DNA from: a virus
Reading direction: 5' to 3' (one strand)
DNA: 43,274 nucleotides
Virus record (IMG/VR): IMGVR_UViG_3300008113_000337
Location: 1 to 43,274 of that record
This document shows, piece by piece, positions 934 through 5,896 of this stretch. Each line of letters starts with the position of its first letter. Position 1 is the first letter of the stretch. The position numbers and the translations under genes are program-made. A model generated the notes under the pieces. It made no database searches, was not told where the DNA came from, and saw only the letters and a list, made by a program, of their open reading frames with translations.

Positions 934-1007
934 CCTTTCGTAGCTCAATGGTAGAGCACTCGGCTGATAACCGGTAGACACAAGTTCGATTCTTGTCGAA
1001 AGGACCA
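934..1007 (+). tRNA. tRNA-Ile(GAU)
   Basis: Acceptor CCTTTCG pairs with CGAAAGG, followed by A73 and encoded CCA. D-stem GCTC/GAGC, anticodon loop CTGATAA (GAU at 966-968), T-arm ACAAG-TTCGATT-CTTGT. The outer anticodon-stem pair C27-U43 is mismatched. Confidence 0.93.
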
Positions 1008-1240
1008 TATTAAATTACATTGGTTACCAAGCCAGTAGGTAATTTATGCAGAGAATTAAATCCTAGTGACGGCTAGGCTCTGCTAAGTTACATGAAAGGT
1101 GGAAATCGGCTTAGGCTTAGATCAGTAGTCGCGCTGGAACAGCTTGGCAAGTAATGTGGTTGATAGACAAGTCCGTGGACGACACGGTAGGGCAGGTTTA
1201 AAACTGTTATTTCTATCAAACACCCAGTGTAATTTAATAT
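1007..1240 (+). ncRNA. structured inter-tRNA RNA module 1
   Basis: The ends are complementary over 17 bases: 1007-1023 pairs with 1224-1240, with one G-U pair. The stem begins at the last base of the upstream tRNA CCA and ends 8 bases before tRNA-Glu. Inside are several perfect hairpins: TTACC/GGTAA, GCAGAG/CTCTGC enclosing CCTAG/CTAGG, CCGTG/CACGG, and TTGATAGA/TCTATCAA. There is no ORF. I cannot assign it to a known family; ornate phage RNAs that sit among tRNA genes (GOLLD, ROOL) are the first to compare. Confidence 0.65.
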
Positions 1241-1248
1241 GTTTTTAT

Positions 1249-1324
1249 GTCCCGCTCATCTAGCGGCCTAGGATACCAGCCTTTCACGTTGGTCACACGG
1301 GTTCGAATCCCGTGCGGGACGCCA
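1249..1324 (+). tRNA. tRNA-Glu(UUC)
   Basis: Acceptor GTCCCGC/GCGGGAC, G73, encoded CCA. Anticodon stem CCAGC/GTTGG around loop CTTTCAC (UUC), T-arm ACGGG-TTCGAAT-CCCGT. Confidence 0.95.
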
Positions 1325-1443
1325 TTATTCTGTGGCTTATAAGCTCAGAGACTTGGCCTAGTGTTATGTAACCTATTCAATAAACCGTAAACTCGAGTAA
1401 AGCGGTTGAGAGTGGGCATATAGTATAGGCTACAGAATAATGG
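1322..1443 (+). ncRNA. structured inter-tRNA RNA module 2
   Basis: CCATTATTCTGTGG (1322-1335) pairs with CTACAGAATAATGG (1430-1443) over 14 bases with one G-U. The 5' strand includes the CCA of tRNA-Glu, and the 3' strand ends 4 bases before tRNA-Cys. Inner stems AACCG/CGGTT and GCCTA/TAGGC are visible. No ORF is present. Confidence 0.6.
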
Positions 1444-1447
1444 TAAT

Positions 1448-1525
1448 GTATCGGTGGCAGAGCGGTCCAATGCACGGGATTGCAAATCCTGAAAACCGGG
1501 GGTTCGATTCCCTCCCGATACTCCA
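1448..1525 (+). tRNA. tRNA-Cys(GCA)
   Basis: Acceptor GTATCGG/CCGATAC, U73, encoded CCA. Anticodon stem CGGGA/TCCTG with loop TTGCAAA (GCA), T-arm GGGGG-TTCGATT-CCCTC. Confidence 0.95.
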
Positions 1526-1534
1526 ATATAATGC

Positions 1535-1562
1535 TTGACATATATTATAAAGATGTTATAAT
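1535..1562 (+). promoter_or_regulatory. sigma70-type promoter
   Basis: TTGACA, 16-base spacer, TATAAT, 20 bases upstream of tRNA-Asp. It re-initiates transcription inside the tRNA array. Confidence 0.75.
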
Positions 1563-1581
1563 AGAAACAAGTAACAAATTT

Positions 1582-1658
1582 GCACCGTTAGCTCAGTTGG
1601 TTAGATCGCTTGCCTGTCACGCAAGAGGCCAGGGGTTCGAGTCCCCTACGGTGCGCCA
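1582..1658 (+). tRNA. tRNA-Asp(GUC)
   Basis: Acceptor GCACCGT/ACGGTGC, G73, encoded CCA. Anticodon stem CTTGC/GCAAG with loop CTGTCAC (GUC), T-arm AGGGG-TTCGAGT-CCCCT. The D-stem GCTC faces an imperfect partner. Confidence 0.95.
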
Positions 1659-1671
1659 TGATTGTTATTTT

Positions 1672-1716
1672 GCCCCGATGGTGGAATTGGTAGACGTGGC
1701 TAAAAACACAGATACC
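1672..1716 (+). pseudogene. 5' part of a tRNA-Leu gene, interrupted
   Basis: GCCCCGA followed by TG and a Leu-type D-arm (GTGGAATTGGTAGA) is the 5' half of a class II leucine tRNA. The sequence then degenerates in the anticodon arm and leads into the HNH endonuclease gene at 1748. A matching 3' half (acceptor CTGGGGC, A73, CCA) lies at 2264-2293. Acceptor pairing between the halves is 6 of 7, with one G-U, which suggests one gene was split by an insertion. Confidence 0.6.
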
Positions 1717-1747
1717 ATATATATTGTATATACCTAAAAGGAAAATC

Positions 1748-4533: not shown

Positions 4534-4753
4534 TTTGTAAGTGTCAGCAAGAGAATGTCACGCTATAAAGGTTTCTTCGAAGGACTGATATAGTAGAAGG
4601 GGACGGGTTCAACTCCCGGCTGATCGTAAGATCGGTGCAGTATGGTTGCAAACTGGATTAGTATCCCAAGTGATATCCATCGTGTACGAGGTCAGGCTAG
4701 GCGGCCGGTAAGTCCTGAATAAATCTACGATAAACGTGACGTAGGCTTACAAA
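4534..4753 (+). ncRNA. structured inter-tRNA RNA module 4 with embedded tRNA mimic
   Basis: TTTGTAAG (4534-4541) pairs with CTTACAAA (4746-4753), ending 8 bases before tRNA-Gln. Inside, TCAGC (4544-4548) pairs with GCTGA (4619-4623), and directly 5' of that strand sits a T-arm (CGGG-TTCAACT-CCCG, 4604-4618). That is the acceptor/T-arm geometry of a tRNA but without CCA. A GATC-GUAA-GATC hairpin and a CTACG/CGTAG stem follow. The TTCAACT loop is also typical of tmRNA, yet no tag or second half is near. Confidence 0.6.
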
Positions 4754-4761
4754 TTCATTGT

Positions 4762-4835
4762 TGGGGGTTAGTGTAGCGGTAACACTACAGACTTTGACTC
4801 TGTCATCACTGGTTCGATCCCAGTACCCTCTGCCA
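4762..4835 (+). tRNA. tRNA-Gln(UUG)
   Basis: Acceptor TGGGGGT/ACCCTCT with an unpaired U1-U72, in keeping with the weak first pair of tRNA-Gln. G73, encoded CCA, anticodon stem ACAGA/TCTGT with loop CTTTGAC (UUG). Confidence 0.93.
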
Positions 4836-4848
4836 AATAACCGAGCAT

Positions 4849-4877
4849 TTGACTCGGATTCAAAAAGATGTTATAAT
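4849..4877 (+). promoter_or_regulatory. sigma70-type promoter
   Basis: TTGACT, 17-base spacer, TATAAT. It drives the small ORF at 4897 and the tRNA-Lys that overlaps its end. Confidence 0.8.
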
Positions 4878-4896
4878 AGTGTTTTAGGAGATAAAG

Positions 4897-5040
4897 ATGA
4901 AGCACAAGATAATCGTCAAGCAACGTAACCCCTTCGTTGTTTTGACATTAAAAAGAAAAGCGGGTAGCCATCGTAAGCCATTCAAGGCAATGCGAAAGGC
5001 ACACAATCAAATTCTAATTGGACCTGAAACTTTAAGGTGA
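4897..5040 (+). CDS. small basic protein, 47 residues, unknown
   Basis: An ATG with AGGAG 6 bases upstream and a promoter 20 bases before that. The product starts MKHKIIVKQRNPFVV and is rich in Lys and Arg (KRKAGSHRKPFKAMRKAH). I have an impression of similar small basic phage proteins but know no function; RNA or DNA binding is possible from charge alone. The last 21 bases, including the TGA, form the acceptor and D-stem strands of tRNA-Lys, so coding and tRNA sequence are shared. Confidence 0.6.
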   Translation: MKHKIIVKQRNPFVVLTLKRKAGSHRKPFKAMRKAHNQILIGPETLR

Positions 5041-5093
5041 AGTAACGAGCTTTTAACTCGTAAAATCCGGATCGTTACCGGACAGGTCTACCA
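5020..5093 (+). tRNA. tRNA-Lys(UUU)
   Basis: Acceptor GGACCTG/CAGGTCT (first pair G-U), D-stem ACTT/AAGT, anticodon stem ACGAG/CTCGT with loop CTTTTAA (UUU), T-stem TCCGG/CCGGA, A73, encoded CCA. The T-loop ATCGTTA departs from the usual TTCRANY. The 5' end lies inside the small ORF at 4897. Confidence 0.85.
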
Positions 5094-5118
5094 AGTGCAT
5101 TCTTTAGTATCGAACTCT

Positions 5119-5126
5119 TATAAATA
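5119..5126 (+). promoter_or_regulatory. T4-type late promoter (TATAAATA)
   Basis: An exact octamer 26 bases upstream of the HNH endonuclease start at 5153. Late promoters in front of homing-endonuclease genes are known in T4. Confidence 0.75.
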
Positions 5127-5152
5127 TTAAAATATTTTAATAAAGGTTCGAT

Positions 5153-5731
5153 ATGAAAGATTGTCCAAAATGCGGGTTAAAACATGTCAAAACAGGAACA
5201 TTCTGTTCTAGAAGTTGTGCCAATAGCAGAGTTTTTTCTGATGATGCTAAACACAAAAAGAGCATAGCCTTAAAGGGAAAACCAAGCACTAGAGTTATAT
5301 CTGATTTATACAAATGGCGCGCTAACATTAAGCAAGCCTGGTTAGACAAATATAATGCCACGCCGTTCGATGAATTGGGTATGGAAAACAGACGCCGTAG
5401 GGTGTTTGAGGAACAGAATTATTGTTGTGTCAAATGCGGTATATCTGAGTGGTTTACTAAACCAATATCATTGGAGTTAGAACACAAGGACGGAAACACC
5501 ACTAACAATAGTAGAGAAAATTTAGAAGGGCTGTGTCCTAATTGTCATAGTATAACTGATACTTGGCGAGGAAGAAACAAACCATCTAAGAATGGGGTAA
5601 ATGAAGTCACTGATGAATTTTTACTACAATGCTTAAAAGAATCTAATAATATCAGACAAGGATTGCTTAAAGCAGGTCTTGCGGCAAAAGGTAATAATTA
5701 CGCAAGGGCTAAGATGTTACTTGGTATTTGA
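5153..5731 (+). CDS. HNH homing endonuclease with N-terminal zinc ribbon
   Basis: 192 residues starting at the ATG after AAAGGTTCGAT. Cysteines 4, 7, 18 and 22 form an N-terminal zinc ribbon. The HNH core has CVKC (92-95), LELEHKDGN (His 111), NNSRENLEGLCPNCHS (Cys 128 and 131, His 132). The C-terminal 45 residues look like a helix-turn-helix target-binding segment. A late promoter precedes the gene. It separates tRNA-Lys from an orphan tRNA 3' end that starts right after its stop codon, which suggests insertion into a tRNA gene. Confidence 0.85.
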   Translation: MKDCPKCGLKHVKTGTFCSRSCANSRVFSDDAKHKKSIALKGKPSTRVISDLYKWRANIKQAWLDKYNATPFDELGMENRRRRVFEEQNYCCVKCGISEWFTKPISLELEHKDGNTTNNSRENLEGLCPNCHSITDTWRGRNKPSKNGVNEVTDEFLLQCLKESNNIRQGLLKAGLAAKGNNYARAKMLLGI

Positions 5732-5766
5732 TAAGGTTCATAGTTCGATTCTCTGTGCCCCTACCA
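5732..5766 (+). pseudogene. tRNA 3'-end fragment
   Basis: CATAG-TTCGATT-CTCTG is a T-arm, followed by TGCCCCT, A73 and CCA. No 5' partner (AGGGGCA expected) is visible between tRNA-Lys and the endonuclease, so the 5' half was lost. Confidence 0.55.
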
Positions 5767-5896
5767 TATAAAAACACACTTTCAATCTGAATTGACAGAT
5801 ACAAACAACCAAGGGGATCCGCTGGGTTCATTCCAGGTGCATCCTGAATTGACAGGAACAAGGTTGTAAGGGGAGCCGAGTGTGTTTCTATATGGT
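5763..5896 (+). ncRNA. structured inter-tRNA RNA module 5
   Basis: The 17 bases 5763-5779 pair with 5880-5896 with a single mismatch. The 3' end is 3 bases from tRNA-Arg. Inside, ACAACC pairs with GGTTGT, and two hairpins, TCTG/CAGA and TCCTG/CAGGA, carry the same six-base loop AATTGA. The self-complementary AATT in both loops could form a loop-loop contact. A CTGG/CCAG hairpin is also present. Confidence 0.65.

Follow-up and report, generated by a model that had tools for sequence, protein, structure and literature searches.

What occupies the spacers between the transfer RNA (tRNA) genes of a freshwater phage, where several of them begin and end with long complementary sequences? This question is raised by the IMG/VR record IMGVR_UViG_3300008113_000337, the whole of which (43,274 bases) is the window that was analysed here and in which 27 of the 28 tRNAs called by ARAGORN lie within an array at 934-13045. 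A sequence-only reading of this DNA had proposed that a family of closed RNA modules fills the spacers. In this study, which was based on folding and on the comparison with 80 related IMG/VR loci that were gathered via one protein (7908-8375), most of which have tRNA arrays and all of which are metagenomic fragments, we found that the modules M1, M2, M3b and M3c (Table 1) are conserved, previously uncatalogued structured RNAs whose structure is under selection. The explanation that we favour, and regard as fairly probable, is that they are small GOLLD-like self-associating phage RNAs that are co-transcribed with the tRNAs and released by tRNA processing.

The terminal stems of the 307 distinct tRNA spacers in the 80 related loci and the window were scored against dinucleotide shuffles, and a stem at p<=0.005 was found in 53 of them when approximately 1.5 were expected. 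The long complementary ends that had been read in the four main spacers were borne out by folding in M1, M2 and M4 and by covariation in M3c. The M1 fold (1008-1248) had a z-score of -5.1 and none of 200 shuffles was equally stable. Its homologues were collected using BLAST, and in the alignment of 15 distinct sequences 94.4% of the cells of 59 consensus pairs were paired, 39 of these pairs having double-sided changes; these figures are somewhat favoured because the structure was predicted from the tested alignment itself. A degenerate M1 pattern was additionally scanned against IMG/VR, and most of the matches listed look like chance. In the case of M2, the outer stem has 20 pairs when mismatches are allowed, the fold (1325-1447) had a z-score of -3.4 with 0/200 shuffles as stable, and the core pattern was matched by 57 IMG/VR stretches. 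Among 29 distinct homologues, compensatory double changes were present in 18 of the 19 outer stem pairs (94.6% of cells paired) and in 25 of the 31 pairs of the whole structure (94.2%); none of 500 shuffles reached any of the five measures, and pairing fell to 35-42% once the partner was slid. The outer stem of 18-20 base pairs keeps its complementarity although its sequence varies among the members.

The M3c fold (4529-4761) had a z-score of just -1.2. An exact 18-mer of this module was found in 76 IMG/VR stretches, and across 39 members 90.3% of the cells were paired with double changes in 23/36 pairs, which was reached in 0/500 shuffles. For M3b (fold z-score -0.9), an exact 20-mer was present in 92 IMG/VR stretches, one covarying position pair was A-U in 30, C-G in 25 and other in one (55/56 paired), and the flanking stem had 5.5 pairs when matched compared to 4.1 when permuted. 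Moreover, the isolate Cobetia phage Carin-5 has an M3b homologue outside the tRNAs with a terminator-like hairpin behind it, and this stand-alone copy supports M3b as an RNA in its own right. Another homologue is present on a contig of a Deferribacterales metagenome-assembled genome, in a stretch without tRNAs. Directly upstream of M3b in the window is a tRNA-like element that ends in CCA (4378-4452) and is called by neither ARAGORN nor Rfam; it has 72-94% identity with elements in several other phages. The covariation in relatives, whose absence from the terminal stems had been named in advance as the outcome that would count against closed modules, strongly supports them. The notion of a single family did not survive, as M1, M2, M3b and M3c are unrelated RNA families that share their packaging.

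M2 and M3c also contain self-complementary loops. The palindromes were scored in anchored loops as alignment gaps had spoilt a fixed-column scan. In M2 loop b, the hexamer ahead of TAAAGC was CTCGAG, CGATCG, CACGTG, CAATTG, CTGCAG or CATATG, i.e., six types over 38 members, and in loop a the tetramers were GATC, GTAC, GGCC, GCGC and TGCA, with GATT as the exception, which is self-complementary if wobble pairs are counted. In M3c, the variants of loop 1 included CTTCGAAG, AGTTCGAACT, GATGGCCATC, TCTGCGCAGA and TTGTTCGAACAA, among others, and loop 2 had a palindrome of at least 6 nucleotides (nt) in 51 of 52 related matches, the core hexamers being of about ten types; the one match that lacks it is apparently L316, which has no tRNAs and looks like chance. 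As a background, any 6-nt palindrome was found in about 21-23% of the windows of the M2 and M3c RNAs. Within a single chain, the neighbouring bases of a palindrome are unable to pair, and hence loops that change but stay palindromic point to pairing between copies. The palindromic loop hexamer of the human immunodeficiency virus type 1 dimerisation initiation site forms a homodimer in this way, in an unrelated RNA and context, and serves here as an analogy of mechanism. The same argument from changing palindromes has accompanied the cryo-EM structures of OLE and GOLLD: OLE is a homodimer whose symmetric loop switches among GGCC, GAUC and AGCU, and GOLLD is a kissing-loop homo-oligomer with a covarying palindrome in one loop (PMC12286853). 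The M2 and M3c loops carry this signature, which points to symmetric kissing-loop homodimers.

The modules keep to tRNAs but not to particular ones. Within 1 kb of a tRNA were 40/44 of the distinct M2 matches, 50/52 of M3c and 56/66 of M3b, all on the tRNA strand, and the upstream tRNAs were of 7, 16 and 10 types, respectively; with one family behind many tRNA types, the modules evidently change slots. Among the tRNA-adjacent M2 copies, the whole upstream CCA was paired with UGG in 16/21 and the stem extended into the initial GG of the tRNA that follows in 7/21, so exact tRNA maturation would strip those terminal pairs. The former observation also fits another explanation, in which the outer helices are processing stems, comparable to the RNase III stalks of precursor ribosomal RNA, or structured spacers that control how fast or in what order the tRNAs mature, while the interiors are incidental or secondary. 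Consistent with this, the spacer between tRNA-Glu and tRNA-Cys is a bare hairpin of 35-43 nt in five loci (L006, L012, L023, L040 and L049) and a module of 120-240 nt in others. However, the interiors of M1, M2 and M3c are themselves conserved and covarying, and interiors move between tRNA slots and also occur off tRNAs with other outer stems, which makes this explanation unlikely for the set as a whole.

The outer stem of M4 (fold z-score -3.6 at 5757-5899) recurs at the same place in many relatives and belongs to a widespread clamp, family A, whose 5' arm begins in the CCA of a tRNA and whose 3' arm stops just ahead of the next tRNA or module. The exact 17-mer of the commonest 3' arm is present in at least 120 IMG/VR stretches, and among the exact matches listed 152 of 157 had a 5' arm upstream that was complementary at 16-17 of 17 positions. 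In the tests of arm pairing, the 5' arm was picked by position without selecting for complementarity; matched arms formed 14.98 of 20 pairs compared to 13.30 when permuted, and over 93 distinct interiors 15.44 of 18 compared to 13.72, with a maximum of 14.15 in 20,000 permutations. Double changes were present in 13/18 clamp pairs. The clamp encloses about 90 unrelated inserts, and there is hardly any constraint on the sequence inside it, which can be as short as a bare hairpin or exceed 200 nt. The claim that the modules are not copies of one repeat held for the interiors; the outer stems of M1 and M4 both resemble one recurring clamp sequence. Beside M4, an orphan tRNA 3' half with CCA was noticed at 5732-5765, behind an open reading frame (ORF) at 5153-5731 that has no Pfam match; its CCA pairs in the M4 stem.

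Clamp arms that are conserved around so many different interiors could also be the terminal inverted repeats of mobile DNA cassettes that insert behind the CCA ends of tRNAs, to which the tandem clamp copies in one locus (L002, 7715-8315) and the change of slots by the families would be well suited. On the other hand, the copies are always oriented as the tRNAs, the M2 outer stems vary in sequence among members, and the arms use wobble pairs systematically (U-G in 40/79 at one position) and have a recurrent A.C mismatch, which argues for RNA and not for DNA repeats. We consider mobile cassettes very unlikely, and a DNA transposon or miniature inverted-repeat transposable element was rejected as the main explanation because of the constant strand and the wobble pairs.

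The Infernal comparison that the sequence-only reading had recommended was run with Rfam 15 (4227 families) at gathering and permissive thresholds. At gathering thresholds, the window matched tRNA and permuted transfer-messenger RNA (tmRNA) alone and no module was matched, and in twenty member loci at E<=0.5 the families that reached gathering scores were limited to tRNA and GOLLD. Filing the modules under a known Rfam family was therefore rejected. ARAGORN and Rfam (RF00005) call the flanking tRNAs and none of the modules. GOLLD (RF02032) had no gathering match in the window and none at E<=5 in the array at 900-7900; the same model finds it in 5 of the 50 phage records with modules that were examined, and in one of these (L299) 97 nt separate it from an M3c copy downstream. 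ROOL (RF03087) had no match in the window and none in 50 related records, which is a weak negative as it lacks a positive control. A literature search, whose coverage did not extend to most subscription journals, did not retrieve any paper on these modules. Within its tRNA gene cluster, phage T4 encodes the stable non-tRNA RNAs C and D, which are freed by processing and may be likened to the modules. Both GOLLD and ROOL are phage non-coding RNAs near tRNA islands, the latter forming an RNA-only nanocage with kissing loops (PMC12286853). The modules appear to share with GOLLD the phage origin, the location near tRNA islands and, in M2 and M3c, the palindrome covariation; they differ in size, as GOLLD, which assembles into a 14-mer cage, is often longer than 800 nt and ROOL has 659 nt in the described structure, whereas the modules have about 77-235 nt, each with its own terminal clamp. 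OLE, whose palindrome-switching loop shares its signature with M2 loop a, is a large bacterial RNA and not a phage tRNA-array RNA, and it had no match here.

Small GOLLD-like phage RNAs that associate with themselves thus remain our preferred explanation. The spacers would be independent phage non-coding RNA genes that are transcribed within the tRNA polycistron, and each module would fold compactly with a long terminal helix that holds and protects its 5' and 3' ends. Excision would occur as the flanking tRNAs mature, by RNase P at the 5' end of the downstream tRNA and by 3' processing at the upstream CCA, and M2 and M3c would then associate with their own copies via kissing loops as small counterparts of GOLLD and ROOL. 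No terminator-like site was found on the + strand of 700-6000, due to which an intrinsic-terminator reading of the spacers was rejected and release would have to come via processing. The proposal that normal tRNA processing releases the modules as blunt-ended, stable RNAs is plausible. Several points weigh against this explanation. The family members are related by descent and their counts are not independent events; transcription, excision, stability and dimerisation are what we infer from sequence; and the stem sequesters the CCA of the tRNA and could hinder 3' maturation, so a clean release is not obvious. Moreover, no consistently palindromic loop was found in the 15 distinct M1 sequences, a dimer loop was not demonstrated for M3b, M4 or family B (see below), and the stand-alone M3b copy comes from a single isolate, with a terminator that was identified by consensus.

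Table 1. Positions of the RNA modules and associated features in the window.
Feature	Position	Strand	Remarks
Promoter-like 12/12 match	849-877	+	Upstream of tRNA-Ile, M1 and M2; consensus match only
M1 RNA module	1006-1240	+	18-pair outer stem beginning in the CCA of tRNA-Ile; multi-branched interior
M2 RNA module	1322-1443	+	Outer stem CCATTATTCTG.../...CAGAATAATGG; tRNA-Glu CCA paired with UGG ahead of tRNA-Cys
M2 self-complementary loop a (GGCC)	1355-1358	+	Self-complementary in 28/29 members
M2 self-complementary loop b (CUCGAG)	1392-1397	+	Palindromic in 38/38 scorable members
Family B hairpin GTTTAGG...CAGCAA...CCTGTT	2761-2828	+	Between tRNA-Asn and tRNA-Tyr; encloses anticodon-arm-like hairpin
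M3b RNA module	4452-4528	+	Covariation
M3c RNA module	4533-4754	+	9-pair outer stem TTTGTAAG/CTTACAAA; T-loop hairpin; two palindromic loops
M3c self-complementary loop 1 (CUUCGAAG)	4575-4582	+	
M3c self-complementary loop 2 (CGGCCG in window)	4702-4707	+	3' domain of the window diverges from other members
M4 RNA module in family-A clamp (CCATATAAAAACACAC ... GTGTGTTTCTATATGG)	5763-5897	+	Long two-part stem

Family B, which was absent from the elements listed by the sequence-only reading, has homologues in about 20 loci, and its fold as a single sequence was not significant. Its hairpins (GTTTTAGG...CAGCAA...CCTGTTG) were observed in the window and in L073, L076, L078, L079 and L080, and enclose an anticodon-arm-like hairpin, tRNA-like arms or permuted tRNA pieces (T arm, acceptor, CCA, acceptor, D arm). 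The anticodon-arm-like loop CUUGUAA is identical in L073, and by eye some interiors of family B and of clamps look like permuted tRNAs in L080, L079 and L078. That such interiors mimic tRNA arms as decoys for the tRNA-targeting defence nucleases of the host is highly improbable as a general explanation, for although the hairpin with a tRNA-like T-loop in M3c, the CUUGUAA hairpin of family B and the tRNA pieces inside some clamps would agree with it, M1, M2 and M3b have no tRNA mimicry and T-loops are a common tertiary motif. Nevertheless, each of the three rival explanations, by processing stems, mobile cassettes or decoys for nucleases, may hold for part of the set. The matches of family B to Dictyostelium Class I RNA (RF01414; 27.2 bits, E 0.08 and 28.8 bits, E 0.14, with a gathering score of 41.5) are probably due to chance and were rejected. 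As to the shorter modules that had been proposed, the one at 4455-4528 stood on its covariation and two others did not: 4307-4372 had a z-score of -0.7 and its homologues were all near-identical, and 13057-13162 had a z-score of -0.8 and a minimum free energy structure of two separate hairpins. The latter element, which is located behind tRNA-Gly, is nonetheless conserved with 80-94% identity in many loci.

The closest cultured relatives by one protein are Stenotrophomonas phage DLP_6 and Xanthomonas phage X1, and both have groES in the tRNA array; in the window, groES (3007-3273) is accompanied by an ORF with a DnaJ domain. Closed spacers were few in the two phages (3/32 at p<=0.01), and no match was obtained for M1, M2 and M3c using blastn against isolates. 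Two spacers of DLP_6 (8486-8561 and 17076-17235) are closed in a family B-like manner. Among the other features of the window are a second promoter-like 12/12 match at 1535-1562 (consensus match only) and a permuted, two-piece tmRNA (RF04321, 82.9 bits) at 11227-11747. By eye, one tRNA gene looks interrupted, with its 5' half at 1672-1715 and a fitting 3' half with CCA at 2265-2291, between which are an ORF (1748-2185) with no Pfam match and then tRNA-Leu. A tRNA with the anticodon CTA, labelled Pyl by ARAGORN and possibly a suppressor tRNA, was found in L078, L079, L117 and L163.

To date, GOLLD and ROOL have been striking but isolated curiosities whose function is unknown. Ribosome pull-down with GOLLD has been mentioned (PMC12286853) and, together with the tRNA setting of the modules, it leads us to a guess, which we regard as rather unlikely, that the assembled RNAs may act on the translation machinery of the host during infection. 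Somewhat less doubtful, though still tentative, is the wider idea that tRNA arrays would be a general cassette platform for a large and fast-turning-over set of self-assembling RNAs, in which interchangeable domains with a standard terminal clamp pass from one tRNA slot to another. A separate palindromic self-recognition code in each of them would prevent the mixing of co-expressed RNAs, and GOLLD and ROOL would merely be the largest members of the set. As the modules are small and their palindromes can be exchanged, direct tests of how they assemble and what they do are feasible. Cultured phages have relatives of two of the families, namely an M3b homologue in Cobetia phage Carin-5 and family B-like spacers in Stenotrophomonas phage DLP_6. 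Given that a single phage has four or more families and that its relatives contain many further inserts, our results suggest that GOLLD and ROOL belong to a richer class of small, closed and self-pairing RNAs of phage tRNA arrays.

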